A program made the translations under genes and the position numbers. Shown here one piece after another: positions 13,613 through 63,937 of a DNA stretch of 64,000 nt. The DNA is from Eubacteriales bacterium (lineage in GTDB: Bacteria; Bacillota; Clostridia; Lachnospirales; Lachnospiraceae), in NCBI GenBank assembly GCA_030524745.1, contig JAUNGC010000011.1:49482-113481 (forward strand), given 5' to 3'. Positions within the stretch are counted from its first letter, which is position 1, and each line of letters starts with the position of its first letter. The notes under the pieces are model-generated. The model ran no database searches. It was not told the origin of the DNA and saw only the letters and a program-made list of their open reading frames with translations.

Positions 13613-13614
13613 CG

Positions 13615-14688
13615 ATGACGAAAAAACAGGCGGCAAAGGCGGTCATTTTTCTGGCCGGATTCATTTTCATATTGATTACGGTGACCTATATCATCCGCAC
13701 GAACGGCGATGTGAAGGATCGCTTTGTGGGATTTTATGCGGAAAAGGATAACACCATCGATGCGATCATGGTGGGCTCCAGTCCGGTTTATCCTTTTTAC
13801 AGCGCGCCGAAGCTGTACGGGGAGCAGGGCATTGCGGCATATCCCCTTTCCACCAACAACCAGCGTCCCAAGGCGATCAAATATCTGCTGAAGGAAGCGC
13901 AAAAAACCCAGGATCCCTCCCTTTTTATTATCGAATTGCGCATGTTTACCATGCCGGACGAGGAGTGGGAGGACACGATGGTGTTCACCAGGGGCGTTAC
14001 GGATAACCTGAAATATTCCTGGAACCGGGTGCAGGCGATCAACGCGCTGGTCAGCGATAAGAGCGAACGCTATACCTATTATTTCGATATTTTCAAATAT
14101 CACTCCAACTGGAAGACGATGGTCATGCCCAGCCAGCTTGCCTGTTGGCGTTATGAAAAGGCGCATCCGTTAAAGGGGCTGGAAATCAAATACGGGGTCG
14201 GCCCGACAGAGCGGGTGGACCTGTCCGGGGTGACACAGGCGCAGGAGCCTGCCGCAGAACAGGTGGAAGTGCTCTATGATCTGCTTTCCTGGATTGAGGA
14301 TTCGGGAAAAGACGCGCTGTTTCTGGTTTCTCCCTATGTGATGGAGGAAGCCGATAAAAAGCAGTACAATTATATCATTCCCATCATCGAAGAGGCGGGC
14401 TATCGGGTTTTGGACCTCAACGATCATGTGGAGGAAATGGGACTGGATTTCGGGACGGATTTCTATGACTACGGAAGTCATGTGAATGCGCTGGGAGAGG
14501 CAAAATGTACGGCTTTTCTGGGCGATTATCTGGATCGGAATTATGATCTGCCGGACCGCAGAGGGCAGGCTGGTTATGAGAGTTGGGACAGCGCCTGGGC
14601 GCTGTATCAGGAAGCGCAGGCCCAGGCGGAAGCGAGTTGCCTGGACGATATCGCAAACGAGAACTGGGCGCCGGAGGTCATAGATTGA
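13615..14688 (+). CDS. Membrane-anchored SGNH/DltD-like protein
   Basis: 357 residues from ATG 13615; the longer frame reaching back to 13441 overlaps the MBOAT gene. An N-terminal membrane helix (residues about 8-28) is followed by an extracytoplasmic domain. MVGSSPVYP places a candidate catalytic Ser at 55-56, and FYDYGSHVNALGEAK near residue 285 supplies the Asp/His pair of the SGNH fold. Partners of MBOAT proteins with this layout (DltD, AlgX/AlgJ types) complete transfer of the acyl group to the glycan outside the membrane. The long substitution-rich middle region has no further recognisable motif. Confidence 0.75.
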   Translation: MTKKQAAKAVIFLAGFIFILITVTYIIRTNGDVKDRFVGFYAEKDNTIDAIMVGSSPVYPFYSAPKLYGEQGIAAYPLSTNNQRPKAIKYLLKEAQKTQDPSLFIIELRMFTMPDEEWEDTMVFTRGVTDNLKYSWNRVQAINALVSDKSERYTYYFDIFKYHSNWKTMVMPSQLACWRYEKAHPLKGLEIKYGVGPTERVDLSGVTQAQEPAAEQVEVLYDLLSWIEDSGKDALFLVSPYVMEEADKKQYNYIIPIIEEAGYRVLDLNDHVEEMGLDFGTDFYDYGSHVNALGEAKCTAFLGDYLDRNYDLPDRRGQAGYESWDSAWALYQEAQAQAEASCLDDIANENWAPEVID

Positions 14689-19778: not shown

Positions 19779-21278
19779 ATGAAAATTTGGAACAAATTAA
19801 AGGAGCAGCCGGATAAATGGATTTTCCGGATTCTGCTGGTTGCATTTCTGGGCAGCATGCTGCCGGTCTGGTATCTGTCGCGCTATACCATGCCGGGCCG
19901 GGATGATTTTACTTATGGAGTTAACACGCATGATGCCTGGTTTGCCACCCATTCTCTTTGGGAAGTGCTCAGGGCGGCCGCGGCGACGACGGCAGAATCC
20001 TGGAAACTGTGGCAGGGAACCTGGTCGTCCATCTTTCTGATGGCGCTGACGCCGGGCGTTTTCGGAGAACGGTGGTATTTTCTGACGGGGCTTATCATGA
20101 CGGGAATGCTGGGCGGCAGCATTGCGGCCCTCGTCCATGTCGTACTCAGAAAATATGTGGAAGCCGGTGGAAAAGAGGCGAAGTATCAAAGCGGAATCTG
20201 TATTCTGATTCTCATTTTTCTTTCCGTTCAGACGATGGTTTCGCCGCTGGACGGTATTTACTGGTATAATGGGGCGCTGCATTATATATTCATGGAATCC
20301 GTATTGTTTTTTCAGGCGGCGGTGCTGCTGTCCTTTCTCAAGGCTTCCAAAAGAGGCAGGGCAGGATATCTGATACTGTCTGTGCTGCTGGCGGCAGTTT
20401 TGGGGGGCGCAAATCTCCTGACCTCGCTGCAGTCCTGTATTTTAACGGTATTCCTTGTTCTGTATGAATTCTGGAAGAAGAAAAAAGACCGCCTGTGGCT
20501 GTTGCTGCCGCTTTTGTGCAACCTCGTCAGCTTTGGGTTCAATGTGCTGGCGCCGGGCAACCTGATACGGGAAAATACTGCGGAAGGAATGGGAGCGGTC
20601 AGCGCGATTCTTCTGTCCTTTTACTGGGCGGCCGTTTACATCACGGAATGGATGACGCCCATCGTGCTGGTGGGATTTGCCCTGATGCTGCCGGTTATCT
20701 GGGAGATGGGGAAAAAATCCAAAGCGCAGTTTTTCCATCCGCTTTGCGCCGTATTTTTGTCCGTCTGTGTCTTTGCGGCGATGTTTACGCCGACTTTGTT
20801 CGCAACCTCCAGCGAGGGGCCGGACCGTTGTAAAAATGCGATGCGGGTGGTGCTGTATCTGTTGGTGTTTTTGAATCTGCTCAATGTGTCGGGGCGGCTT
20901 GCCCAAAGTAATCCGAAGTGTCTGTTTGGAAGGATTCTGGATGAGATTGGGAAAAATTACGGAACCTGGCTTTTCACGGCGCTTTTGCTGCTCGGAGCGG
21001 TGTTTTTGCTTTCGGCGGACAAAAATACTTATACATCGGTTTCGGCGGTTCGTTCCCTTGTAAACGGGGAAGCGGCGCAATATTATGAAGAGAATATGCA
21101 GCGGTTGGCCCTTTATACAGACCCGGAAAGAAAGGATGTGACCGTCGCTCCTCTGAAAGCGCATCCCTATCTGATTTTTACCACGGATGTGGGAAATGAA
21201 GGCAGCGAAGGGTATTGGATCAATCTGGCGCTGAAGGATTATTATAAGCTGGATAGTATCACGGTTTTGGAAGAGTGA
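19779..21278 (+). CDS. DUF6056-type polytopic membrane protein
   Basis: 499 residues with about ten membrane helices, beginning after a short positive N-terminus. A conserved extracytoplasmic segment near residues 35-60 (MLPVWYLSR.. GRDDFTYG..THDAW) is shared with the paralog at 59676 (MLPLWYLAG.. SGDDYGYS..THAAW). The acidic pair in GRDDF resembles the catalytic loop position of GT-C glycosyltransferases and oligosaccharyltransferases; that is inference. The family has no known function. In both loci it occurs with an MBOAT/SGNH/carrier module, suggesting a role in extracytoplasmic glycan modification or polymer transfer. Confidence 0.7.
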   Translation: MKIWNKLKEQPDKWIFRILLVAFLGSMLPVWYLSRYTMPGRDDFTYGVNTHDAWFATHSLWEVLRAAAATTAESWKLWQGTWSSIFLMALTPGVFGERWYFLTGLIMTGMLGGSIAALVHVVLRKYVEAGGKEAKYQSGICILILIFLSVQTMVSPLDGIYWYNGALHYIFMESVLFFQAAVLLSFLKASKRGRAGYLILSVLLAAVLGGANLLTSLQSCILTVFLVLYEFWKKKKDRLWLLLPLLCNLVSFGFNVLAPGNLIRENTAEGMGAVSAILLSFYWAAVYITEWMTPIVLVGFALMLPVIWEMGKKSKAQFFHPLCAVFLSVCVFAAMFTPTLFATSSEGPDRCKNAMRVVLYLLVFLNLLNVSGRLAQSNPKCLFGRILDEIGKNYGTWLFTALLLLGAVFLLSADKNTYTSVSAVRSLVNGEAAQYYEENMQRLALYTDPERKDVTVAPLKAHPYLIFTTDVGNEGSEGYWINLALKDYYKLDSITVLEE

Positions 21279-51241: not shown

Positions 51242-52831
51242 ATGAAAAAGAAGAATTTGCTTCCGAAAGACAGATGGATAAGTTGTCTCTTAATAGCCGG
51301 TTTCTGTTTATACTTTTTTGCGTCACTATTTATCGTTCGTGATTATGGCGTTTCTACGGATGAACCGCAGGAAAGAAAAACGATGTATGTGAATGCAAAT
51401 TATGTTCTTACAAAATTAGGACGGGAATCGATGGAGGGTATCCCGGAACTCGACACTTATAAAGACAAGTATTATGGCGTTGCTATGCAGATGCCAATGG
51501 CAGTAATTGAGTTGCTGCGCGCTCCTGTACCGTTTGTCTATTTTTGCAGACATATGTATACATTCAGTGTTTGCCTGATCGGTTATGCCGCTTTTTTTCT
51601 TTTGTGTAAAAGAATTTTTCATTCAAATATGCTGGCGCTTTTGGGGACGGTTATGATCGCGCTCTATCCGCGCTTTTTTGCCGAACAGTTTTACAATGTC
51701 AAAGATATGATATTCGTTGCAATGTACATGATTTCCATGTGGGCGACGGTGCAATTGATAGAAAGCAATTTTTCAAAAAAATGGGTGTTTCTGTTTTCAA
51801 TCATTGTCGCATTGACGACAAATGTCAGAATCGTAGGCTTTATTTTCATGGGATTGGTGATTGGCTACCTGTGGGTAATATGTGTGCTGAATAACCTGAA
51901 AAAAATAGATGATAATGGATTGACCTACCGAAGAAGTGTATTAATCAGCGTGATCATGATAGCGTTATATTTTGTAGTTTTGGTTATCAGCATGCCGGGA
52001 ACCTGGAGTAATCCGTTACAGGGCATTCTTGATACCTTTATCAGATTTTCCGATTATCCGGGCGGTGGAAATGTGGTGTTCATGGGTGAGGTGATGGAAA
52101 ATACCGAGATCCCGTGGTACTATATTCCGGTATGGATGCTCATTTCGATTCCGATCTGGTATATTTTGCTCTTCTTTGTTGCGGTATATCAGGTAACGAA
52201 GAAGACAGCGGCCCAAGTGAAAAATAAGGAGATATGGAATACTGTTCTGAAATATAAATATCTTATTTGGAGCGTATGCCTGGCGGCTGTTCCATGGATC
52301 ACAATAGCGGTAAAAGGCGCTAATTTATACAATGGCTGGCGCCATTGTTATTTCCTGGTGCCGCCCATAATTCTGTTTGTTTTATATGGTGTGGATGCCG
52401 TATTGAAAAACAAAAAGAAAACAGCGAATATTCTGTTGGGAGTATTGATTGCAGTTGGCTTGTTGGCGCAGGTGAAGTGGATTTATGTGAATCATCCATA
52501 TGAAATGGTTTATTTTAACCGGATCGGACGATTGTATGCGGCTGATTTTGACAGGGATTACTGGCATTTGTCCGAAATAAGGGCGTGGGAATATATTGCA
52601 GCGCATGACGACAGCGAAAAAATTACGGTCAATACTTCGGGGTATCAATTTTTTACACATGTCCTGTGGCCTGAAGAAAAGGCAAGGGTTATCATTTCTG
52701 ACAATCCGGATTATTATATTGAGACATATCGGGGAAAAGTGGGAAATGAATGTAGCAAAGAAGGATATGAGGAGTTTTATTCCATTGTGATTGATGGATT
52801 TAAAGTGGCGACAATCTTTAAAAAGTTATGA
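51242..52831 (+). CDS. GT39-like polytopic glycosyltransferase (GT-C fold)
   Basis: 529 residues from ATG 51242 (GGGAAGGA upstream). After a basic N-terminus and one helix, VRDYGVSTDEPQERKT places the Asp-Glu pair typical of the first extracytoplasmic loop of GT-C enzymes (PMT/ArnT class). About ten more membrane helices follow, and a C-terminal extracytoplasmic domain of about 90 residues ends the protein. Such enzymes use polyprenyl-phosphate sugars outside the membrane, for example to attach side branches. The donor is unknown. Confidence 0.72.
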   Translation: MKKKNLLPKDRWISCLLIAGFCLYFFASLFIVRDYGVSTDEPQERKTMYVNANYVLTKLGRESMEGIPELDTYKDKYYGVAMQMPMAVIELLRAPVPFVYFCRHMYTFSVCLIGYAAFFLLCKRIFHSNMLALLGTVMIALYPRFFAEQFYNVKDMIFVAMYMISMWATVQLIESNFSKKWVFLFSIIVALTTNVRIVGFIFMGLVIGYLWVICVLNNLKKIDDNGLTYRRSVLISVIMIALYFVVLVISMPGTWSNPLQGILDTFIRFSDYPGGGNVVFMGEVMENTEIPWYYIPVWMLISIPIWYILLFFVAVYQVTKKTAAQVKNKEIWNTVLKYKYLIWSVCLAAVPWITIAVKGANLYNGWRHCYFLVPPIILFVLYGVDAVLKNKKKTANILLGVLIAVGLLAQVKWIYVNHPYEMVYFNRIGRLYAADFDRDYWHLSEIRAWEYIAAHDDSEKITVNTSGYQFFTHVLWPEEKARVIISDNPDYYIETYRGKVGNECSKEGYEEFYSIVIDGFKVATIFKKL

Positions 52832-52863
52832 TGCCGGTATCGTTGTACTTTGACGGAAAGACG

Positions 52864-52892
52864 TTGCGGGGAACAAAGAAAAATAGTATAAT
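52864..52892 (+). promoter_or_regulatory. Promoter candidate for the Dlt-like block
   Basis: A perfect TATAAT (52887-52892) is preceded at 17 bases by TTGCGG (52864-52869); another TTGACG lies at 52850-52855. It is 33 bases before the carrier-protein start and after a 94-bp gap, so the carrier-to-decarboxylase block may be transcribed separately. Compare the extended -10 before the other carrier gene at 11757. Confidence 0.55.
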
Positions 52893-52925
52893 CGGAATAG
52901 TTTATAGCGTAGAGGAGCAGATACA

Positions 52926-53153
52926 ATGGAAGAGTTAAAAGCAATATTGTCCGAAATCAGGCCGGATATTGATTTTGATGAGGAGAAACACTTAATTGAC
53001 GACGGGATTCTGGACTCTTTTGATATTATTTCGATCGTAGGGGAAGTGAATACTGCATTTGATGTGGAGATCAATGTGGAAGATTTGCTGCCGGAGAATT
53101 TCAATTCCATGCAGGCAATGTATGATCTGATTTGTAAGCTGCAGGACGAGTAA
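52926..53153 (+). CDS. DltC-like carrier protein
   Basis: 75 residues behind GAGGAG. The acidic protein has LIDDGILDSFDIISIVGEV, with Ser31 as the phosphopantetheine site; the spacing and LLDSF-like motif are those of D-alanyl carrier proteins more than of fatty-acid ACPs. It precedes an MBOAT and an SGNH gene, and a DltA-like ligase is encoded at 61185. It would carry an aminoacyl thioester from that ligase to the MBOAT. The cargo need not be D-alanine. Confidence 0.88.
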   Translation: MEELKAILSEIRPDIDFDEEKHLIDDGILDSFDIISIVGEVNTAFDVEINVEDLLPENFNSMQAMYDLICKLQDE

Positions 53154-53170
53154 GATACGGAGAAAGCGAT

Positions 53171-54688
53171 ATGTCATTTTTATCGGTGAAGTTTCTTCTG
53201 TTTCTGGCAGTGTTGTTTGCAGCGTACTTCCTGTTGCCAAAAAAATGGCAGCGGGGAGTATTGCTGATTGCCAATATTGTTTTTTATTTGTCGGCCGGCG
53301 TAAAATATGCAGGCTTTATTTTGGTTACGGCGATATCAGCCTGGGGGATTGCGCTTCTGGTGGAGAGAACAAATGAAAAATATCAGGAGTTGAGAAAGAA
53401 TGCCCGGACAAGAGAAGAGAAACAGGCGGGCAAGGCTGTCTGTACCAGAAAGAAAAAACAGATCATGATTGTGGTAATGGCGCTGAACTTCGGGATCTGG
53501 ATAGGATTCAAGTATTCTGGTTTGCCGCTGCCGCTGGGTATTTCTTTTTACACGTTCATTGCTGTGGGCTATTGCATTGATGTTTACAGAGGAAAATATA
53601 CGGCGGAAAAGCGCTTTGACAGATTTTTCCTGTTCCTCACCTTCTTTCCCCATATCATTCAGGGACCATTCAGCCGGTATGATAAACTGAAAGATTCTCT
53701 GAGTACAGAACATGAATTTTCCCTTGACCGGATGGGAGAGGGAATCGTCAGAATGCTATGGGGCTTCTTTAAGAAGATGGTCATCGCGGACCGTCTGGGA
53801 GTTGTAGTGCAGAATATTTACGGAGGAGAGGGAAGTTACGGCGGAATTTACATATTGGTGCTGATGGCCGCTGTGACATTGCAGCTTTATGCGGATTTTT
53901 CCGGTTATATGGACATTGCGGCGGGAATATGCCGGGTCCTTGGACTGGAATTGCAGGAAAACTTCCGTCAGCCTCTCTTTTCACGGTCCATTGAGGAGGT
54001 TTGGAGACGTTGGCATATTACGCTGGGGGCTTGGTTTCGGGACTATTTATTTTATTCCATATCCATGAGCAGAGCAGTTCAGAAGCTGGGAAAGAGGTGT
54101 AAAGAAAAGATGTCCCCTGCTATGGCGAGGATGATCCCCAGCTATCTGGCGTTAGCTGTTGTGTGGACTGCAACCGGGTTCTGGCATGGCGCGACGTGGT
54201 ATTATCTGATCTGGGGCTGGATGAATATGGTATTTATTATACTCGGCATGCAGCTTTCGGCATCTTATACAAAAATAAGAGAAAAACTACATATTTCGGA
54301 TAGCAACAGAGCGTGGCGTCTGTTTCAGATGCTGCGAACCTTTTTGCTGTTCGGATATATGGAGATGTTTTCTGATTCCGGGTCGACATCCTGTTCGGTC
54401 AGACTGACAATTTCGCTGTTTTCTTCAAATAACTGGGGATTGGTGAAGCATCCGCTTTTGCTCTTCCCGGGACTGGAAATTCTGGATGTGGTTATTGTAG
54501 CGGCGGGATTGCTCCTGATTCTTACGGCAGATATTCTGAAGGAAAAAGGGAAAAATCTCTATCAGGTATTGAAAAGCGTTCCGATCGTGGTTCGCTATAT
54601 TGGGTATGCAGGTTTGTTTTACGCTATCATTTTATTGGGCAATACCGGTACAGATCTGACAGGGGGATTTATGTATGCGCAATTTTAA
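53171..54688 (+). CDS. MBOAT family O-acyltransferase (DltB-like)
   Basis: 505 residues with about ten or more membrane helices. VWRRWHITLGAWFRDYLFY and TGFWHGATWYYL (catalytic His) are the MBOAT motifs. The start lies 18 bases after the carrier stop and it overlaps the SGNH gene by 14 bases. The tight carrier-MBOAT-SGNH order equals DltC-DltB-DltD. It would pass the carrier-bound group through the membrane. Confidence 0.9.
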   Translation: MSFLSVKFLLFLAVLFAAYFLLPKKWQRGVLLIANIVFYLSAGVKYAGFILVTAISAWGIALLVERTNEKYQELRKNARTREEKQAGKAVCTRKKKQIMIVVMALNFGIWIGFKYSGLPLPLGISFYTFIAVGYCIDVYRGKYTAEKRFDRFFLFLTFFPHIIQGPFSRYDKLKDSLSTEHEFSLDRMGEGIVRMLWGFFKKMVIADRLGVVVQNIYGGEGSYGGIYILVLMAAVTLQLYADFSGYMDIAAGICRVLGLELQENFRQPLFSRSIEEVWRRWHITLGAWFRDYLFYSISMSRAVQKLGKRCKEKMSPAMARMIPSYLALAVVWTATGFWHGATWYYLIWGWMNMVFIILGMQLSASYTKIREKLHISDSNRAWRLFQMLRTFLLFGYMEMFSDSGSTSCSVRLTISLFSSNNWGLVKHPLLLFPGLEILDVVIVAAGLLLILTADILKEKGKNLYQVLKSVPIVVRYIGYAGLFYAIILLGNTGTDLTGGFMYAQF

Positions 54689-55982
54689 AAAAATTGTCCT
54701 GATGGTCGCGGTATTATTGGGAATGGAATTGCTGGCAGAGTTTTTGTTGGTTCCGGTGACTTATCAGAGATCTTTAGACCGGGAATTGGAAGCGCTGGAG
54801 AAACAGGGGACTTCCCCCAACGTGGTAATTTTGGGAGATTCAACGGTTGTATATGGTCTTGCTCCCCTTCGCATGGAAGAAGCGATGGGGACTGATGTAT
54901 GTGTAGTGAATGCGGGGACAAGTTCCCAGACGGTATGGGGATCCTATTACTATCTAAAAGATTTGCGGCGGGAGTATCCGGAGATAAAATATGTCGTGCT
55001 GGGGGTGGATTACTGGGCATATGCGGATATAGAGAAATCCATTAAGAAGGAATTGCTTGTGCTGGACCGTGTGAAAAATCCTTTTATCAAGGGAGAATAT
55101 GTGCTCGAAATTTTCCGGCCGGAGGAGTATCCGTATTTGTTGAAAAGTTACGCATTTCGAAATGGAATCGCAAATATTGGAGAGAACGTAAAAGAAAAGC
55201 TGTTGCCCCAAAAAACGCAATTCGTAACGCGGGGGCATCGTTCGATCGGACCCGGCATGGGAGAGGAACGCGTGGGAATGCAGCAGATTGGTCAGTTTGA
55301 CATGGAAAGCATAAATCCGCGCGCCGTGCAGTACCTGGACAGAATATATGAATTTTGTAAGAAAGAAAATATCAAATTATATCTGGTGAGTATGCCGCTG
55401 ACTTCAACTGCGGTCTATGAGTCGGCTTCGTATGAAGCGTTTTGGCAGTATTTTCGGGAATATGCTGACCGGAAACAAGTTACCTTCTGGGATATGAATA
55501 TTTTGAAGGACCGGTATGAGGTGATTCCTGACGGCATGATGGCGGATATTGGTCATGCGGGTGATCCGGGGTATGTGAATATCAGCAGGAAACTGGGGGA
55601 ATTGCTGAAAACGGATATGGAAGGCGAGTCTGTTGAGGAGGAGTTTTATCCGTCTGTTCAAGCCTGGGAGAATAGTCAGACGGGAATTATTGGATGTGAT
55701 TTTTATACAGAAGCGGTGGATGGGACAAAGAATAGACGGATTCAGGCGGAGAGTCTGCAAAGCGAAGGCGTGATACCGGAGTATGAGTTCTGGATATCTG
55801 TTGGCGGAGAGGATAATTGGGTGAAAATGCAGGAATATGGAAAGGGAGACTCCTGTGTGATTCCGGGATATTATTTTGAAAAGGATGTGTGGATGAAAAT
55901 ATGCTGCCGTAAAAAAGGAAGCGCAGTTTTGTATGAAAAAAGCTGCGTGAAAATGAGGGAGGCAGCTATGGGCAATGAATAG
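54675..55982 (+). CDS. SGNH/DltD-like protein with extra C-terminal domain
   Basis: 435 residues, start overlapping the MBOAT gene (AGGGGG site at 54661). One N-terminal helix (residues about 6-28) leads to an SGNH-like domain: VVILGDSTVVYG with Ser56, and DIGHAGDPGYVN near residue 296 for Asp and His. After about residue 320 there is an additional domain of about 110 residues rich in aromatic and acidic residues (EYEFWISVGGEDNWVKMQEY), with a look of triple-tyrosine/Ig-like glycan-binding modules; that is a guess. It is probably extracytoplasmic and helps to place the acyl group on the acceptor. Confidence 0.7.
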   Translation: MRNFKKIVLMVAVLLGMELLAEFLLVPVTYQRSLDRELEALEKQGTSPNVVILGDSTVVYGLAPLRMEEAMGTDVCVVNAGTSSQTVWGSYYYLKDLRREYPEIKYVVLGVDYWAYADIEKSIKKELLVLDRVKNPFIKGEYVLEIFRPEEYPYLLKSYAFRNGIANIGENVKEKLLPQKTQFVTRGHRSIGPGMGEERVGMQQIGQFDMESINPRAVQYLDRIYEFCKKENIKLYLVSMPLTSTAVYESASYEAFWQYFREYADRKQVTFWDMNILKDRYEVIPDGMMADIGHAGDPGYVNISRKLGELLKTDMEGESVEEEFYPSVQAWENSQTGIIGCDFYTEAVDGTKNRRIQAESLQSEGVIPEYEFWISVGGEDNWVKMQEYGKGDSCVIPGYYFEKDVWMKICCRKKGSAVLYEKSCVKMREAAMGNE

Positions 55983-56038
55983 AAATATATTGGGTCGTGA
56001 GAGAAGCGTCGTTGACGGCAGGGACAGGATAGAGTAAG

Positions 56039-57082
56039 ATGGAAATCAGAAACAGCAGGGAACGGAAAATATATTTGGAGTTGTTGAGGTGCATAGCGGT
56101 TCTTTTGGTTATCTTTAATCATACGGATGGCTTCTTTTTGTATTACACAAATACGGATCATCCGGTAACGTTTGTCTATTCTTTGCTCCTTTCTGTTCTT
56201 TGCAGGGTAAATGTGCCGGTCTTCTTTATGATTTCAGGCGCCCTGCTGCTGGAACGGCAGGAATCTGTTTCAGAACTGTTTCGCAAGAGGGTGTGGAGGA
56301 TCATTCTGGTGATTTTCCTGTTTTCTTTTTTTCAATATGCGATAGATGCTGTAAGAGGGAGAGAAACGCAGGTTTCACTTTTTTCCTTTTTAAAGGGAGT
56401 GGCAACCGGAACGATAGAAGAGACTTACTGGTTTTTATATGCATATCTGGGAATTCTTTTGCTTCTTCCGTTTATGAGGAAGCTGGTAAAGCAAATGAGG
56501 CGTGAGGAGTTTGTTTATCTGCTCATCCTGGAAATTCTTATGGCCGTTTTCATACCTGCCGTGGGCTCTTTCGTCAGGATACAGATACCTTCCGCCTTGT
56601 ATTTTGTAAATGTAAATGTTTTTTATATGATTATGGGATATGCATTGGAACATGACATAATCGGGAACGGAAAGAACGTGAGGACGTGGAAACCGGTGGT
56701 TGGAATGCTGCTCTTCATTGTGATTTCTGCGGGTGTTTGTTGCCTGCGTTACAGGATTGAGGGCTCGTTTCTGGAAAGTGATCTGGATCTGTTCGCACCT
56801 CTTCTGACTTTGCTCATGTTTGCTGCTGTCAGACAGTTTTGTGCGGAAAAAAATATGCCTGGCAAGGTTGAACATGGAATTGAAATATTGGGGAGTTGTG
56901 CTTTTGGCATTTATCTGGTGGAGCAGCCTGTGAGAATTTTGCTGCTGCCGGTATATTTATATCTCTGTGAGCATTCGGTTGGGGTAATCGCATGTTCGGT
57001 ATATGTGGCCGGAACCTGTGCCGTTTCCGGCGTACTGGCATATGTATTGAAAAAGCTGCCGGGGATGAAAAGATTAGTGTAG
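56039..57082 (+). CDS. Acyltransferase family 3 (OafA/YrhL-like)
   Basis: 347 residues, about ten membrane helices. The opening YLELLRCIAVLLVIFNHTDG has the catalytic His of acyltransferase-3 (usually RxxA...H), and VPVFFMISGALLLERQ is the second conserved segment. Such proteins O-acetylate surface glycans. No SGNH domain is fused. It sits between two MBOAT/SGNH pairs, so this locus encodes three independent O-acylation routes. Confidence 0.85.
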   Translation: MEIRNSRERKIYLELLRCIAVLLVIFNHTDGFFLYYTNTDHPVTFVYSLLLSVLCRVNVPVFFMISGALLLERQESVSELFRKRVWRIILVIFLFSFFQYAIDAVRGRETQVSLFSFLKGVATGTIEETYWFLYAYLGILLLLPFMRKLVKQMRREEFVYLLILEILMAVFIPAVGSFVRIQIPSALYFVNVNVFYMIMGYALEHDIIGNGKNVRTWKPVVGMLLFIVISAGVCCLRYRIEGSFLESDLDLFAPLLTLLMFAAVRQFCAEKNMPGKVEHGIEILGSCAFGIYLVEQPVRILLLPVYLYLCEHSVGVIACSVYVAGTCAVSGVLAYVLKKLPGMKRLV

Positions 57083-57094
57083 AGGAGAAAAAGT

Positions 57095-58543
57095 ATGTAC
57101 TTTAATTCCTATTTGTTTTTATTATTGTTCCTGCCTCTTACCCTGGCAGGGTATTATGCTCTCAACTATTTGAAAAAGCAGAACGGGGCGATCATTTTTC
57201 TTCTGGGAATGTCTTTTTGGTTCTACGGCTATATGAATCCAAAGCATTTGCTGATACTGGCGGCAAGCATTTTCCTTAATTTTGGAATTTACCGCTTGTT
57301 TGACCTGAAAATTGCCGGAGGAAATTTCATCAGAAAAGTAATTTTATTTTTTGCGGTTGCAGGGAATCTCGGCGTTTTACTTCTGTATAAATATTACAAT
57401 TTTGTTGTGGATAACTGGAATTTGATTTTCAGAAATGAGCATAGTTTAAGAAACTTTATAGTGCCGCTGGGGCTGAGCTTTATTACATTTCAGCAGATTG
57501 CTTTTGCGGTGGATGCGTATCGTAAAGAAGTGCCGGAGTATAATTTACAGGAGTACGCGCTGTTCATTGCGTTTTTTCCGCATCTGTCGTCGGGGCCGAT
57601 TATTACCCATGAGCAGTTTATGCCCATGCTTCGTGATCCTTTGAGAAAACAGGTGAATTGGGACCGGTTTGGGCAGGGATTGTATTTGTTTGCCATGGGG
57701 CTTGGAAAGAAAGTGCTGCTGGCGGATTTATTTGGCGCTGCCGTTGACTGGGGCTACCTGCATATACCGGAACTGAATTCCTTCAGCGCGCTTCTTGTCA
57801 GCATTTTTTATACCACTCAGATTTACTTTGATTTCAGCGGTTACAGTGATATGGCGATTGGAATCAGCCGTATGCTGAATCTGGACTTGCCGGTCAATTT
57901 CAATTCTCCCTATAAAGCGGATACAATTATGGAATTCTGGGACAGATGGCATATTACGCTGACGCGTTTTTTCACAGGATATCTTTATATTCCGCTGGGA
58001 GGGAGCCGGTGCGGCAAAATCAGAACCTGGTTGAATACAATGTTTGTTTTTCTGTGCAGCGGTATTTGGCACGGTGCAAACTGGACATTTGTCTTGTGGG
58101 GATTTTTACATGGCTGTTTTCAGATTTTTTCCAGAGAAGCGGCCGGAATTCTGAAAAAACTCCCCCGTGCTGTGAACAGATTGGTTACGCTGGCTTTTGT
58201 TAACCTGGCCTGGATTGTGTTCAGGGCGGATAATTTTGATGTGGTCAGACAGATGTTCGGAACCATTTTCACAGGCGGCGGAGGCGGTTTAAACGGTGAC
58301 CTCGCTGAATTTTTCAGACTTTCCAGCCTGGAAAAAATAGTGAATATAGAAATTCCGGCAGGGGCAACGGCCATTGTACTGACAGTGCTTGTGTGGATTC
58401 TGATACTCGCCGGAAAAAATGCGGAAGAGATGGCGGATAATCTGAAACATGGAATTGCAAGGGGCGCGCTGGTGGTGGCGGTAATCGTGTTGTCACTGCT
58501 GAATTTTTCGGGAGTCAGCTCTTTTCTTTATTTTAATTTTTAG
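57095..58543 (+). CDS. MBOAT family O-acyltransferase (AlgI-like)
   Basis: 482 residues behind GAGGAG. FWDRWHITLTRFFTGYLYIPLG and the His motif CSGIWHGANWTF match the AlgI/PatA-type MBOAT group, rather than the DltB type at 53171. FHPFLSSGPI-like loops (FFPHLSSGPII) also fit. It is followed at 13 bases by an SGNH-like protein, so it is probably an independent acetyl-type transferase. Confidence 0.9.
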   Translation: MYFNSYLFLLLFLPLTLAGYYALNYLKKQNGAIIFLLGMSFWFYGYMNPKHLLILAASIFLNFGIYRLFDLKIAGGNFIRKVILFFAVAGNLGVLLLYKYYNFVVDNWNLIFRNEHSLRNFIVPLGLSFITFQQIAFAVDAYRKEVPEYNLQEYALFIAFFPHLSSGPIITHEQFMPMLRDPLRKQVNWDRFGQGLYLFAMGLGKKVLLADLFGAAVDWGYLHIPELNSFSALLVSIFYTTQIYFDFSGYSDMAIGISRMLNLDLPVNFNSPYKADTIMEFWDRWHITLTRFFTGYLYIPLGGSRCGKIRTWLNTMFVFLCSGIWHGANWTFVLWGFLHGCFQIFSREAAGILKKLPRAVNRLVTLAFVNLAWIVFRADNFDVVRQMFGTIFTGGGGGLNGDLAEFFRLSSLEKIVNIEIPAGATAIVLTVLVWILILAGKNAEEMADNLKHGIARGALVVAVIVLSLLNFSGVSSFLYFNF

Positions 58544-58556
58544 AAGGGAATTGTAA

Positions 58557-59627
58557 ATGAAGAGTAAAAAGTGGGTTTTGGGAGTTTTGACTGCATATAT
58601 AGGAGTTCTGTTGATGATTGGCGGCATCACTTTTGTGATCGATCCGTTTTTTCACTATCATGCGCCGTTGAATGGAGTCTACTATTCCTATCAAAATGAT
58701 AATGATGTCTATATGAATGACGGAATAGTGAAGCATTTCGCGTATGATGCCGTTGTGACGGGAACTTCGATGACGCTGAATTTTAAAACTGCAGAGGTGG
58801 ATGAATTATTTGGCGTAAATTCCGTTCGTGTATCATTTCTTGGCGAGGGATTTAAGGTTATTAATGATACGCTGAAAATAGCGCTGCAGGAAACTCCGGA
58901 GTTGAAGCTTGTGATCCGCGGCGTGGATGACGCCTGGTTTATTTCGGACGCCAATTGGGAAGGACGTGATTCGTATCCGGAATATCTCTATGACGATAAC
59001 CTTCTGAATGACGTCAATTATCTTCTGAACAAGGATGTGGTGCTTAACCGCATCATTCCGGCGTTGATAAAGACCGCGCAGGGAGTTCCCGCGGATGATC
59101 TGGATCATAATGGATTTGGAGGAGAGAATCTGGTTGGGAAGGAAAAGCTTTTGAAGGATTATGAACGTCCGGAAAAGAAAATCAAGGAGATTGATCCTGC
59201 AGAGACGCAGGAATATTTTACTTATCTGGAGAAGAATCTGGATCAGAATGTACTGCAGGTGATAGAAGACAATCCGGATGTTACCTTTTATCTGTTTCTG
59301 CCGCCCTATAGCATTTTATGGTGGGATCAGTTAAATCAGAATGGCGTGGGTGTATTGAAACGCAGAATAGATCTCGAACAATATGCGATTGAAAGAATGC
59401 TGGAGTATGACAATGTGCGTCTGTTTTCTTTCTTTAACAATTTTGAACTGGTTTGTAATCTGGATAATTATGTGGATGTCAGTCATTATCAGGGAGAGGT
59501 AAACAGCCAGATCTTACAGTGGATGGCGGCAGGCGAATATGAATTGACGAAAGAAAACTATCTGGATTATATTGAAACAATAACGGATTTTTACACAAGC
59601 TATGACTATGATGCTATTTTTGAATAA
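58557..59627 (+). CDS. SGNH-like membrane-anchored protein (AlgX/AlgJ-like partner)
   Basis: 356 residues: an N-terminal helix (residues about 6-28), then an extracytoplasmic domain with VVTGTSMTLNFKTAE (Ser71 candidate) and a C-terminal YVDVSHYQGEVNSQIL giving the Asp/His pair. The FVIDPFFHYHAPL segment after the helix is common in this poorly described group. It pairs with the AlgI-like MBOAT at 57095. The lack of a clear GDSL block makes the catalytic assignment tentative. Confidence 0.65.
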   Translation: MKSKKWVLGVLTAYIGVLLMIGGITFVIDPFFHYHAPLNGVYYSYQNDNDVYMNDGIVKHFAYDAVVTGTSMTLNFKTAEVDELFGVNSVRVSFLGEGFKVINDTLKIALQETPELKLVIRGVDDAWFISDANWEGRDSYPEYLYDDNLLNDVNYLLNKDVVLNRIIPALIKTAQGVPADDLDHNGFGGENLVGKEKLLKDYERPEKKIKEIDPAETQEYFTYLEKNLDQNVLQVIEDNPDVTFYLFLPPYSILWWDQLNQNGVGVLKRRIDLEQYAIERMLEYDNVRLFSFFNNFELVCNLDNYVDVSHYQGEVNSQILQWMAAGEYELTKENYLDYIETITDFYTSYDYDAIFE

Positions 59628-59675
59628 TTTGTCTGAAGCGCTAAATAAAGGAAGCGATGGAGAGGAAATGGCAGA

Positions 59676-61157
59676 ATGAAGAAGATATTTCAAAAGATCG
59701 ATAACAAAAAAATTGCAGTAATGTCGGTTGCCGTATTCCTGTTGAGTATGCTGCCGCTCTGGTATCTTGCAGGGTATGCGCGGCCTAGTGGGGATGATTA
59801 CGGCTATAGTATCTACACTCACGCGGCCTGGCTGGATACCCATTCGATCTGGGAAGTGTTAAAGGCGGCCGCCCGGACTGTTCGCATGGCATATATTGGC
59901 TGGAACGGAGATTTTGTCACGACCTTTTTATTCTCCTTGATGCCAGAGGTATTTGTGCCATGGTCGTTTTGGATCGCTCCTTTGATTATGTCGGGGGCTT
60001 TGATTTTGGGCACGAGCATCTTTTTATATGAGGTTTGTGTGAAAATTATGGGTATGGCGAAAGAAGATTTCTGGATTTTTGACGCTATCATTCTTTTGGC
60101 CAGTTTTCAGTATATTCCCAGTACCAAAATCGGAATGTACTGGTATGTGGGGGCAACGCATTATATTATTCCGCACATGGCGCTGCTGTTGGCTCTGGTA
60201 GCGGCCTGGCGTTTTTTTGTGACGCAGAAAAAGCGTTATCTGGCCGCGGCAGTGATATGGGCTTTTGTTGTCGGGGGCAGCAGCTATTTTTCCTGTCTGC
60301 TGCTTTTTATGCTGTATCTGGTTCTTATGGCGGCAGGATATCGTAAGAATAAAAAGGTACTGGCCCTTGTTCTTCCGTATTTGGTTTGCCTGGTTTGTTT
60401 TATCATCCAGTGTAAATCGCCGGGAAATGTGAACCGGGGCGGCGCTGATTTTGGACTTCATGCGTCCGCTGTTGCCGCCGCCATTTTTCAGGCTCTCTGG
60501 CAGGGGATCGTGATGGCGGGACGCTATGTCAGGGAAAAAACATTTATTTTTATTTTGTTTTTGTTATTGGGAGTTTTCGGATGGGAGGCCTTATTGAAAA
60601 GAAAGAGCAGCTTTTCTTTCCGATATCCCTTATTGTTTGTTATTTTGATGTATGGGTGTTATAGTTCACAGTTCGCGCCTGCTATATATGCGGCGGTCGA
60701 TGTCTCCATGGGGCCGGAGACGATGGAGTATCTGACATTTTTGCCGGCGATGGCGATGTCCGTTTTTTATGTGGAAGGCTGGCTCATTGGAAAACTCGGT
60801 CTGAACGAAGAAAGTTCCATGCAGTTTGCTTTAAAATGGAGGAGCCGTGTGATATTCCCCGCCATATTTGTATGTTTGGTATTGACCGTTCTGAATTCTC
60901 ACTGGATCGGGAGCAGCGTGGACAGAGATGCATTGGAATATGTGTTGAGCGGAAGAGCGGATGATTTTAAGGAACAAATGACAGCGCAAATGGAAGTTTT
61001 GCTGGATGATTCCATTAAAGAGGCATATCTGGTTCCGGCAAATGATGAACAGGGGCCTTTGATGCACATGCCGGTAACGGAGGACGAGGAAGCTTTCACA
61101 AACCGGGTAGTGAGGGATTTTTACAGAAAAGATAAGGTGGTTATCAGGACGGAGTGA
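59676..61157 (+). CDS. DUF6056-type polytopic membrane protein (second copy)
   Basis: 493 residues behind GGAGAGG, paralog of the 19779 protein: the same N-terminal helix, the MLPLWYLAG..SGDDYGYS..THAAW extracytoplasmic loop with an acidic pair, about ten helices and a short soluble C-terminus. The two are strongly diverged outside the first loop. Placement beside MBOAT and DltA-like genes again suggests extracytoplasmic glycan decoration. Function unknown. Confidence 0.7.
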   Translation: MKKIFQKIDNKKIAVMSVAVFLLSMLPLWYLAGYARPSGDDYGYSIYTHAAWLDTHSIWEVLKAAARTVRMAYIGWNGDFVTTFLFSLMPEVFVPWSFWIAPLIMSGALILGTSIFLYEVCVKIMGMAKEDFWIFDAIILLASFQYIPSTKIGMYWYVGATHYIIPHMALLLALVAAWRFFVTQKKRYLAAAVIWAFVVGGSSYFSCLLLFMLYLVLMAAGYRKNKKVLALVLPYLVCLVCFIIQCKSPGNVNRGGADFGLHASAVAAAIFQALWQGIVMAGRYVREKTFIFILFLLLGVFGWEALLKRKSSFSFRYPLLFVILMYGCYSSQFAPAIYAAVDVSMGPETMEYLTFLPAMAMSVFYVEGWLIGKLGLNEESSMQFALKWRSRVIFPAIFVCLVLTVLNSHWIGSSVDRDALEYVLSGRADDFKEQMTAQMEVLLDDSIKEAYLVPANDEQGPLMHMPVTEDEEAFTNRVVRDFYRKDKVVIRTE

Positions 61158-61184
61158 GAGCGGATGGAGAGGCAGGATGAGAAA

Positions 61185-62702
61185 ATGAAGATAAATGTGC
61201 TGGAATATCTGGAAAAAGCGGCGGCCCGGATGCCGGATAAGATTGCTTTTGCGGATCAATATGAGAGTATTACTTATGCAAAACTGGCAGATCAGGCGCA
61301 GCGAATCGGAACCTTTATAAGAGAACGGGGACATTTTCGAAATCTTCCGGTAGCGGTAATAATCGATCGGAATGTGAAAAGCCTTATTTTGTTTTTAGGC
61401 ATCGTGTACAGCGGAAATTTTTATGTGCCGGTGGATCATACAATGCCGATACAAAGGGTGAAGCTGATTCTGGAAACCCTTCAGCCTGTTTTGATCCTGA
61501 GTTCGGTAAAGGATCTTACATGGGAGGGAGAAACACCCGTATCGTTTGACGCTGCTGTGTCCGGGAATATCAATAAAAGGGAATTGGCGGAGGTGAGAAG
61601 AGAAGCATTGGATACGGATCCTCTCTACGCGATTTTTACATCCGGATCGACCGGCGTTCCGAAAGGAGTGCTCATCAGTCATCGTTCTGTGATCGATCTG
61701 GCGGAACAGTTTGGTCAGACATTTGCATTTCCCGATGAAGCGGTGTTCGGAAATCAGGCTCCTTTTGATTTTGATGTATCTGTGAAGGACATATACAATT
61801 GCCTGCGAATGGGAGGAACGTTACAGGTAATTCCGAAGCAGTTGTTTTCTTTTCCGGGACAGTTGATTCCGTACTTAAATGAGCGCCATGTGAATGTGAT
61901 TATCTGGGCGGTTTCCGCTCTGCGGATTGTAGCGAATTTTAAAACCTTTACGAAGAGCAATCCTCTCTTCCTGAAATTGGTTATGTTTTCGGGGGAGGTG
62001 ATGCCGGTAAAGGTGCTCAATTATTGGAGAGAAGCGCTGCCGGAGACACAATTTGTGAACCTTTATGGCCCGACGGAAATCACCTGTAATTGCTCTTATT
62101 ATATTGTGGACAGAGATTTTGAGAATGAGGAGAATCTTCCTATTGGCGTTGCTTTTCGCAATGAAGAAGTTTTTTTGCTGGATCCGGAGACGAATGAACT
62201 TATCACAAAAAGCGAGCCGGACAGAACCGGTGAAATTTGTGTGAGGGGAACCTGTCTGGGACTGGGATATTACAATAACCGGAAGAAGACAGAGGAGGTA
62301 TTTGTTCAGAATCCATTGAACCGGTGGTATCCTGAGAAAATTTACAAAACGGGGGACTTGGGCTATTATAGTCACAACGGCGAACTTTTTTTTGCATCCC
62401 GGAAAGATTATCAGATTAAACACATGGGACACCGAATCGAACTGGGAGAAATTGAGACTGCGGTAAACGCCATGGAATTTATTGATGCCGCCTGCTGCAT
62501 TTATGATGAACAGAAGGAAAAAATCGTGCTTTGCTACCAGGCGTTGGCGCCCTGCGAAAAAGATATAATCGGTCGGTTATCTTTAGCGTTACCGAAGTTT
62601 ATGTGGCCTAATCGATATGAGTATTATGAGCGGCTTCCGATGAATAAAAACGGTAAGCTGGACCGGGTATTTCTGAAAGAAAAACATTGTGGAAACAGAT
62701 AA
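61185..62702 (+). CDS. DltA-like amino acid adenylating enzyme
   Basis: 505 residues from ATG 61185 (AGGA at 61174-61177); ATG 61164 is an alternative. All adenylation-domain core motifs are present: FTSGSTGVPKGVLISH near 151, QAPFDFDVSVKDIY near 191 (with the Asp that contacts the amino group), NLYGPTEIT near 288, YKTGDLGYYS, GHRIELGEIE, and NKNGKLDR with the catalytic Lys near 495. Length and arrangement match DltA, the D-alanine-carrier ligase. At position 269, where DltA enzymes have a Cys reported to control stereoselectivity, this protein has Ser. It should activate an amino acid with ATP and load it on the carrier at 52926. It may not be D-Ala; the next gene is a decarboxylase. Confidence 0.85.
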   Translation: MKINVLEYLEKAAARMPDKIAFADQYESITYAKLADQAQRIGTFIRERGHFRNLPVAVIIDRNVKSLILFLGIVYSGNFYVPVDHTMPIQRVKLILETLQPVLILSSVKDLTWEGETPVSFDAAVSGNINKRELAEVRREALDTDPLYAIFTSGSTGVPKGVLISHRSVIDLAEQFGQTFAFPDEAVFGNQAPFDFDVSVKDIYNCLRMGGTLQVIPKQLFSFPGQLIPYLNERHVNVIIWAVSALRIVANFKTFTKSNPLFLKLVMFSGEVMPVKVLNYWREALPETQFVNLYGPTEITCNCSYYIVDRDFENEENLPIGVAFRNEEVFLLDPETNELITKSEPDRTGEICVRGTCLGLGYYNNRKKTEEVFVQNPLNRWYPEKIYKTGDLGYYSHNGELFFASRKDYQIKHMGHRIELGEIETAVNAMEFIDAACCIYDEQKEKIVLCYQALAPCEKDIIGRLSLALPKFMWPNRYEYYERLPMNKNGKLDRVFLKEKHCGNR

Positions 62703-62737
62703 GGCACGGTACGGTGTTTTAATGTGGGAGAGAAAAA

Positions 62738-63937
62738 ATGACGGAAGAAATTATGAAGAAAACAGGGGAGATATCTGCAGAGAAGACACCATGCTATGTA
62801 TTTGATCTTGATGTTTTGAATTCCCGCATGGAATTGCTTGGAAATGTAAAGGCATCTAATTCGAAAATCTGTTATGCCATGAAAGCGAACCCTTTTCTGA
62901 TTGAGCCGATGGAAGCCGCAGTAGATTACTTTGAGGTATGTTCTCCCGGGGAACTGGAAATATGTAAGGAAGCGCGCATAGCGCCTGAAAAAATTGTGTT
63001 TTCCGGTGTGAATAAGAGAAAGGAAGAGATTGCGGAAGCAATCCGGTATGGCGTTGGGATTGTGACGCTGGAATCTTTGGCGCAATTCCAATATGTAAAA
63101 GAATGTGCCGGAGAATTCCACAGGATAGTAAGCATTATGCCAAGGTTGACCGGCGGGGGGCAGTTTGGCATGGAAAAGAGTGAATTGGAGCAGATCATTG
63201 TGGAAAGCCGGAACAGTCCGATGCTGGAAGTTGCGGGGATTCACTATTTCACAGGCACGCAGAAAAAGAAGAGTGAAAAGATTCTGGAGGAAGCGCGGTA
63301 TTTACAGGAGTATTGCGATGATTTGCAGAAAAGATTGGGATTTATAGCGCCGACTTTGGAATTCGGCACTGGCATGGCGGTCCCGTATTTTGAGGGAGAT
63401 AATTTCGAAGACGATTTGGATGCGTTCATAAAGCTTGCAGATTTTATAAGCAGCGATGGAAAAAAGTATCAATGGACGCTCGAATTTGGAAGATATCTGA
63501 CAGCTTCCTGCGGATACTATTTTTCCTCTGTCGTTGATACAAAGAAAAATCATGGGATTCATTATGCCATAATGGACGGAGGTATTCATCACATTAACTA
63601 TTTTGGGCAAAATATGGCCATGAGAGTTCCGAAGATTATTCATCTAAAGAAAAATGAGGAAAACAGAGCCGGAAAGGTACAGGAGTGGTGCGTATGCGGT
63701 TCCCTGTGTACATTTGCAGATGTGTTGGTCAGGAAGTTGGCTTTTTCTGATCTGGAACAGGGGGATGTGCTGGTATTTCAAAATGCCGGAGCCTATTCGG
63801 TCACAGAGGCAATTTATCTGTTGTTAAGCAGAAAAATGCCGGGGATTTATTTCTATAGTGAAAAGAGCGGATTGTGTATGGCGCGTGACCAGGTGGAAAC
63901 CTGGCGGCTGAATAAGAAGACAGAAATCAGAAGGTGA
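62738..63937 (+). CDS. Fold-III PLP-dependent decarboxylase
   Basis: 399 residues behind GGGAGAG. CYAMKANP (Lys49 as the PLP Schiff-base residue), FEVCSPGELE, LEFGTGMAVPYF (phosphate loop), LEFGRYLTASCGYY, and the C-terminal CGSLCTFADVL (Cys324) and NAGAYS (Tyr353) are the landmarks of the ornithine/diaminopimelate decarboxylase family. The same family includes decarboxylases that act on carrier-bound amino acids (BtrK for glutamyl-carrier, VinO for 3-methylaspartyl-carrier). Position after a DltA-like ligase suggests action on the carrier-bound amino acid or supply of an amine. Substrate unknown. The last 63 bases of the window hold nothing recognisable. Confidence 0.82.
   Translation: MTEEIMKKTGEISAEKTPCYVFDLDVLNSRMELLGNVKASNSKICYAMKANPFLIEPMEAAVDYFEVCSPGELEICKEARIAPEKIVFSGVNKRKEEIAEAIRYGVGIVTLESLAQFQYVKECAGEFHRIVSIMPRLTGGGQFGMEKSELEQIIVESRNSPMLEVAGIHYFTGTQKKKSEKILEEARYLQEYCDDLQKRLGFIAPTLEFGTGMAVPYFEGDNFEDDLDAFIKLADFISSDGKKYQWTLEFGRYLTASCGYYFSSVVDTKKNHGIHYAIMDGGIHHINYFGQNMAMRVPKIIHLKKNEENRAGKVQEWCVCGSLCTFADVLVRKLAFSDLEQGDVLVFQNAGAYSVTEAIYLLLSRKMPGIYFYSEKSGLCMARDQVETWRLNKKTEIRR

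Follow-up and report, generated by a model that had tools for sequence, protein, structure and literature searches.

A candidate Dlt-like cassette of Lachnospiraceae in which a carrier-bound amino acid may be tailored before transfer to the envelope

D-alanylation is a main means by which Gram-positive bacteria tune their surface charge and resist host peptides. In the Dlt system (DltA, DltB, DltC, DltD and DltX), which D-alanylates teichoic acids, one operon encodes a ligase, a carrier, an MBOAT acyltransferase and an SGNH protein. Here we analyzed a 64,000-nucleotide stretch (the window; positions 49,482 to 113,481) of contig JAUNGC010000011.1 from a Lachnospiraceae genome (GCA_030524745.1), in which the same four parts occur with a fold-III decarboxylase dependent on pyridoxal 5'-phosphate (PLP). 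We interpret these five genes as a Dlt-like system of modular make-up that would modify an amino acid on its carrier ahead of transfer, and we put at roughly 60% the probability that they decorate the envelope and include a tailoring step on the carrier. The five genes, hereafter the cassette, are as follows.

52926..53153, + strand: carrier of the DltC-like kind, 75 residues, attachment site Ser31 (PF00550; AmcB/DltC-like below cut-off)
53171..54688, + strand: MBOAT1, a DltB-like acyltransferase with the C-terminal shuttle motif FMYAQF (PF03062; its profile matches DltB in the PDB)
54675..55982, + strand: SGNH1, a putative SGNH transferase (Ser56, His294) resembling DltD and PatB, its fold assigned from a model
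61164..62702, + strand: ligase, a DltA-like adenylation enzyme (DltA match below cut-off; pocket motif)
62738..63937, + strand: PLP decarboxylase of fold III and of the BtrK/TIGR03099 kind (Lys49, Cys324, Tyr353)

The Dlt-type features of a carrier attachment serine, a catalytic MBOAT histidine and an SGNH protein are all present, and the Dlt-like logic proposed in a preliminary description is supported. Relative to Dlt, the ligase pocket of the cassette is different and the decarboxylase is added. The placement of the shuttle motif also differs: it is on MBOAT1 in the cassette and on DltX in Dlt, and it is on the MBOAT itself in PatA, according to the available text of PMC12148441. Peptidoglycan O-acetylation by PatA/PatB shares with the cassette an MBOAT bearing this motif and an SGNH partner, as far as the source text describes it, but uses acetyl-CoA and has no ligase or carrier. 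The same paper, from 2025, states in the available text that outside Dlt the MBOAT-SGNH pathways have no carrier; use of acyl-CoA is evidently the reason. Judged by sequence, the cassette appears to join a Dlt-like carrier to an MBOAT with a built-in shuttle motif.

A second group of relatives shares the decarboxylase. The butirosin (BtrI/BtrK), vicenistatin (VinN/VinL/VinO) and bolagladin (BolO/BolC/BolN) systems combine a stand-alone carrier with a BtrK-type PLP decarboxylase, and the VinN/VinO and BolO/BolN systems include an adenylation enzyme too, as the cassette does; the ligase of BtrI is an ATP-grasp enzyme. All three serve antibiotics or lipopeptides, and we know of no MBOAT-SGNH pair in any of them. 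In AlmE/F/G glycylation of lipid A, a ligase and a carrier feed a surface transferase, as in the cassette, to our knowledge with neither a decarboxylase nor an MBOAT-SGNH pair. The accessible descriptions have BtrK acting on carrier-bound glutamate and VinO on carrier-bound 3-methylaspartate, and carrier-bound aspartate is the substrate proposed for BolN.

The third comparison narrows the claim of novelty. Exosortase A-associated ligases and decarboxylases (TIGR03098, TIGR03099) occur with a carrier in polysaccharide loci, but the cassette proteins score far under the curated cut-offs of these families and the exosortase-associated ligase pocket (DASPFNMFRK) is unlike that of the cassette. One Aureimonas plasmid carries a ligase, a decarboxylase and a carrier in a polysaccharide cluster, with no MBOAT annotated in that stretch, and a Paracoccus plasmid carries, flanked by glycosyltransferase genes, an AMP-binding protein, a carrier and a type III PLP enzyme. 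No published function for the exosortase A-associated ligase and decarboxylase was found in the literature searched. The preliminary description knew of no glycan system with these parts; because such trios are already named in exosortase A glycan loci, that statement must be narrowed, and what looks new on sequence grounds is the coupling to MBOAT-SGNH together with exchangeable tailoring enzymes. No description of an MBOAT-SGNH-coupled set of ligase, carrier and decarboxylase was found in literature judged on titles and abstract openings, with subscription papers mostly outside the coverage.

We quantified the association of the genes in a sample of 299 genomes of the family, calling the decarboxylase at E 1e-30 or better. 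It was present in 60 of the 299. We added 60 further stretches from 59 other genomes, of which one contributed two loci; with the window this gave 61 decarboxylase loci, which held a ligase in 58 cases, the carrier in 58, MBOAT1 in 48 and SGNH1 in 47. All five genes lay on one strand in 42 loci. The preliminary description had proposed searching related genomes for recurrence of the ligase, carrier, MBOAT and decarboxylase, and the set does recur, most commonly (29/61) in the order ligase, decarboxylase, carrier, MBOAT1, SGNH1. The gap between ligase and decarboxylase was at most 60 bases, overlaps included, in 47 of 55 measurable loci, and MBOAT1 was directly after the carrier, among the five gene types, in 36 of 61. 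Linkage was equally visible from the ligase side: a DNA-motif pattern for the ligase hit 62 sites in 60 of the 299 genomes, 50 of them beside the decarboxylase. Hence, chance neighbourhood was rejected, and the linkage of decarboxylase and ligase is far beyond chance. A phylum-wide sample of 398 genomes yielded four decarboxylase matches at E 1e-70, and both of those outside the family (L188, L189) had the five genes in the commonest order. The set is also present in cultured organisms, among them Anaerobium acetethylicum GluBS11 (L158) and [Clostridium] fimetarium DSM 9179 (L145). DltA itself was found in 13 of the 299 genomes at E 1e-130, in 8 of them over the curated cut-off, and accompanied the decarboxylase cassette in three genomes (G082, G090, G152); none of 12 DltA loci had the decarboxylase within about 1.5 kb of DltA.

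The NCBIfam matches of carrier, MBOAT1, ligase and decarboxylase all fell below curated cut-offs; thus none is a standard member of its family. The best match of the decarboxylase was TIGR03099, at 185 bits against a cut-off of 478, and it scored 165 bits against lysA (TIGR01048; cut-off 298). Its catalytic residues, described earlier as intact in the window, are kept almost without exception across the 61 loci (Lys49 61/61, Cys324 60/61, Tyr353 61/61). LysA, the diaminopimelate decarboxylase, shares the fold, the PLP lysine and the catalytic cysteine, but has a glutamate after that cysteine, as in the C-E of the genome's own LysA-like protein, a distinct gene elsewhere in the assembly. BtrK has C-T at this point, and the motif C-[T/S]-x-x-D was present in 86 of 86 readable copies of the decarboxylase. 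BtrK was its nearest solved relative by both sequence and fold. A plain lysA or speC identity was rejected by the scores, the motif after Cys324 and the linkage to the ligase, and the sequence evidence supports the earlier assignment to the kind that acts on carrier-bound or otherwise tethered substrates. The genome encodes a third fold-III decarboxylase (G000:C59:61767-62888, L002), whose best match, FslC, was below cut-off. One decarboxylase reading frame (L036:7213-10557) spans 1114 residues; inspection by eye of its long C-terminal extension showed a membrane helix and, at the end, a transglutaminase-like region.

The ligase matched DltA (TIGR01734) at 309 bits against a cut-off of 560, and the source genome had no other TIGR01734 match at E 1e-20 or better. 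Its pocket, assigned by motif at the ten positions customarily taken from GrsA, reads D204, V205, K208, S251, V273, F275, L300, C308, N309 and K498. Among ligases of decarboxylase loci, 51 of 57 had the pattern D-V/I-K-S/T-x-F-L/V/I-C-N-K. Four others (L054, L070, L072, L076) have the pocket IARSxFQASK, without Asp at the first position, and there the carrier sits between ligase and decarboxylase; the pockets of L036 and L093 also deviate. The pocket was alike with and without a decarboxylase, its lysine being kept in all 66 ligases counted as lacking one, a group that includes L131, whose decarboxylase is truncated at a contig edge and was entered as a decarboxylase in the tailoring counts below. 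DltA pockets from the same family, readable in 8 of 12 cases (L194, L197, L200 and L204 were not read), were DLMSFFTV-like in seven and DLFSFFTGAK in one, with Met or Phe where the cassette ligase has Lys. Thus the pocket lysine is particular to this ligase family among those compared. Lysine at this position presumably occurs in glutamate-activating domains, and for that reason it may be the contact for a second carboxylate. With respect to the VinN residues Asp230, Ser299 and Arg331, the ligase has Asp204, and Lys208 is a possible stand-in for the arginine, a correspondence placed by motif without a VinN alignment.

Family scans, residues and a structural model bear out the earlier identification of the remaining parts alongside the DltA-like ligase. 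The carrier exceeded the cut-off for PF00550, its best NCBIfam matches being AmcB and then DltC, and Ser31 was present in 58 of 58 aligned carriers. MBOAT1 scored 148 bits against DltB (TIGR04091; cut-off 375), and both PDB matches of its profile were DltB. Tyr502 and His339 were each conserved in 46 of 46 copies, all of which end in a shuttle-like C-terminal motif with the tyrosine. SGNH1 had no Pfam match over cut-off; its model (predicted local distance difference test score, pLDDT, 85) has an SGNH fold, with Ser56 kept in 43 of 45 copies and His294 in 45 of 45. Foldseek placed DltD first by E-value with low TM-scores, and a second aligner ranked DltD amid numerous SGNH proteins, PatB included.

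This ligase family has further partners besides the decarboxylase. At the 12 ligase-pattern sites not beside it we found five formyltransferases, one weaker GNAT further off, five with none found and one at a contig end. A ligase scan of named genomes, taking the best 80 of 582 relatives, gave 27 decarboxylases, 16 GNATs, 10 formyltransferases and 27 with none found, where "none" includes loci ended by contig edges (e.g., L096, L182) and formyltransferases and GNATs were identified through Pfam matches of seven examples. Ligase and formyltransferase form a single open reading frame (ORF) in L130:9935-12349 and in L121:10001-12148, the latter reaching the contig end. Different enzymes, or none, beside the same ligase type suggest that the tailoring step is exchangeable.

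Trees agreed with repeated exchange. The ligase tree leaves out L147, whose ligase is short, and L093, which has another ligase type and a decarboxylase of 31% identity. On it the window falls in a group with L096, L098, L035 and others, outside a clade of 73 rows, 69 of them with the decarboxylase. Presence of the decarboxylase changes nine times on this tree, at least seven of them forced by well-supported branches, and the tailoring label changes 21 times; therefore, the decarboxylase has been repeatedly gained or lost beside similar ligases. On the decarboxylase tree, which leaves out L089 and copies shorter than 340 residues, a 14-row set with support 98 holds 10 decarboxylases from the window's ligase clade.

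From homology, the ligase would adenylate an amino acid and load it onto the phosphopantetheine at Ser31 of the carrier, where the decarboxylase would act on the bound aminoacyl group. We favor action on the carrier because of the kinship with BtrK and the unchanged ligase pocket. In decarboxylases of this type, the carboxylate lost is the one adjacent to the amine; therefore, the thioester would lie on another carboxylate, and the substrate would most likely be aspartate or glutamate, a choice guided by VinN/VinO and BolO/BolN in the available portions of PMC11284099 and PMC7756342. Aspartate loaded by its side chain would give beta-alanyl-carrier, and glutamate would give a gamma-aminobutyryl (GABA) carrier. 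By analogy with DltB/DltX and PatA, MBOAT1 would then take the group from the carrier across the membrane to its own C-terminal tyrosine, and SGNH1 would accept it on Ser56 and esterify an envelope glycan outside. The predicted product is a positively charged omega-amino-acyl ester whose free amine is further from the ester than in D-alanylation. The first step (adenylation and loading) and the last (the ester on a glycan) are predicted from homology. We put at somewhat less than even odds the wider proposal of a widespread undescribed Dlt-like branch in Lachnospiraceae and neighbours, in which a single kind of ligase would attach a dicarboxylic amino acid to the carrier via its side-chain carboxylate and an exchangeable enzyme would set the group that the MBOAT-SGNH pair esterifies to an envelope glycan.

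Several observations weigh against this interpretation. In the window, ligase and decarboxylase lie 5 kb from the trio of carrier, MBOAT1 and SGNH1. Three of the 61 decarboxylase loci have no ligase (L046, L091, L092); a contig edge explains L046, the same genome having a ligase near the edge of another contig (L182), while for L091 and L092 a contig break is no explanation or only a possible one. MBOAT1 is absent from the stretch covered, some stretches being incomplete, in 22 of 86 decarboxylase-bearing ligase loci. The ten pocket positions were placed by motif rather than on a structure, and 6 of 57 ligases of decarboxylase loci have another pocket. The common pocket in loci lacking the decarboxylase is partly preselected, because the DNA pattern fixes the codons of D204 and K208, and the ligase patterns used on named genomes prescribe C308 and the residues as far as 203. 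Asp204 also suits ordinary loading by the alpha-carboxylate, and lysine at position 208 presumably occurs in glutamate domains that load that way. In fold, BtrK leads LysA by 1.8 Z units, a small margin. The exact motif FXYXXF occurs in 20 of 46 MBOAT1 copies, including the window's, and the other 26 deviate at the first or last position. Substrate, product and glycan structure are all predictions.

Among the alternatives, the best surviving, though unlikely, is that decarboxylation comes first, on a free amino acid, and the ligase then loads the product, such as beta-alanine, GABA, or lysine from diaminopimelate. The decarboxylase belongs to a superfamily of free-substrate enzymes. According to the available text of the sources, ready-made beta-amino acids are loaded by IdnL1, CmiS6 and HitB, and one of these ligases receives a product that IdnL3 forms by decarboxylating free beta-glutamate. 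However, the decarboxylase is nearest to BtrK, with its carrier-bound substrate, and lacks the LysA glutamate; the pocket lysine suits a carboxylate that the decarboxylated substrate would no longer have; and cassettes without a decarboxylase have the same pocket and would need free product from elsewhere. The preliminary description left open decarboxylation off the carrier; the constancy of the ligase pocket, whether or not a decarboxylase is present, now makes this less likely.

Less likely again, the acceptor might be no surface polymer: the ligase, decarboxylase and carrier would serve the synthesis of a small molecule or amino-sugar nucleotide, with MBOAT1 and SGNH1 using acetyl-CoA. Another acyltransferase gene, of soluble type, directly precedes the ligase in six loci, AAC(3)-like in L107, L109 and L129 and hexapeptide-type in L153, L174 and L175. 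Glycan genes are among the neighbours in four of the six (L107, L109, L129, L153), which suggests that the unit of ligase and carrier, with or without the decarboxylase, can also be put to use with other acceptors. In L107, NeuB follows; an amino-sugar-type aminotransferase and an epimerase are found in L153. Published non-Dlt MBOAT-SGNH pairs are said, in the portions available, to use acyl-CoA, and the window has further MBOAT/SGNH pairs. Against this stand the 36 of 61 loci with MBOAT1 directly behind the carrier, and neighbours that are mostly not glycan genes. In a scan of 92 proteins from 100 sampled neighbours of decarboxylase loci (at most two per locus; 25 of 127 families covered, every family with more than one member included), no glycosyltransferase family matched more than one protein, and the sampled neighbours were mixed two-component and housekeeping genes. 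Seeking the acceptor among flanking genes led nowhere with such mixed neighbours.

We consider it improbable that the ligase loads diaminopimelate, or another two-headed amino acid, by one end and the decarboxylase trims the other to give a lysyl-carrier donor. The fold is common to diaminopimelate decarboxylase and a second carboxylate would be available to the pocket lysine, but in all 86 readable copies Thr or Ser replaces the LysA signature glutamate, and the detour seems pointless when lysine should be freely available. Slightly more improbable still is ordinary D-alanylation or glycylation with an unrelated decarboxylase as neighbour: the ligase is DltA-like and some cassettes have no tailoring enzyme found, but the pocket is unlike that of eight DltA copies, DltA is separate (0 of 12 DltA loci with the decarboxylase), and the decarboxylase and ligase are strongly linked.

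Nine co-directional ORFs occupy 52926-63937 on the + strand of the window. Besides the cassette, this block contains the following features.

52864..52892, + strand: promoter-like element read from sequence, with a perfect TATAAT (52887-52892) and a poor -35
56039..57082, + strand: acyltransferase-3 (AT3) family protein outside the conserved cassette (PF01757)
57095..58543, + strand: second MBOAT, ending in FLYFNF (PF03062; 336 bits against the MBOAT1 profile)
58557..59627, + strand: possible SGNH partner of the second MBOAT (no Pfam or NCBIfam match; GTS motif and late His by eye)
59676..61157, + strand: polytopic membrane protein, no family assigned (no Pfam match; paralogue at 19779-21278 by profile)

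The block had been described as transcribed from its own promoter and ending with the decarboxylase. The TATAAT is perfect, but no site exceeded the thresholds of a promoter scan of 52718-53170; the decarboxylase is the final gene in the window, but the contig ends 63 bases past its stop codon. The second MBOAT/SGNH pair stands in part, as PF03062 identifies the MBOAT while the SGNH family of its partner is unconfirmed, and the pair lies outside the conserved cassette. Neither the AT3 protein nor the possible SGNH protein had a homologue in the other 60 decarboxylase loci. The pair and the AT3 protein were rejected as core parts, not being conserved with the cassette across the 61 loci, and the second MBOAT probably belongs to a separate O-acylation system. 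The 50 kb upstream contain, by eye, glycosyltransferases, two uridine diphosphate (UDP)-sugar enzymes and flippase- and polymerase-like proteins; in sampled relatives, the neighbours of the cassette are mixed housekeeping genes. Some 40 kb upstream, 12125-14688 encodes a further MBOAT1-family acyltransferase (ending FIYQNFKV; 538 bits) and an SGNH1-family protein (235 bits), with no ligase or carrier adjoining; this pair might draw on the same carrier as the cassette.

Canonical DltA is rarer than the decarboxylase in the sampled family (13/299 at E 1e-130 vs. 60/299). These results suggest that the group which many gut bacteria produce and link to their envelope is not D-alanine but another amino-acid group, one that has been decarboxylated. 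If this is true, a major group of gut bacteria would decorate its envelope with unstudied aminoacyl groups through exchangeable on-carrier chemistry, yielding beta-alanyl or GABA esters with the decarboxylase and acidic acylated amino acids with other tailoring enzymes. The tailoring enzyme would then set the surface charge, and the product of the decarboxylase would lower net negative charge as D-alanylation does. Cultured organisms with the five genes make this mechanism testable.

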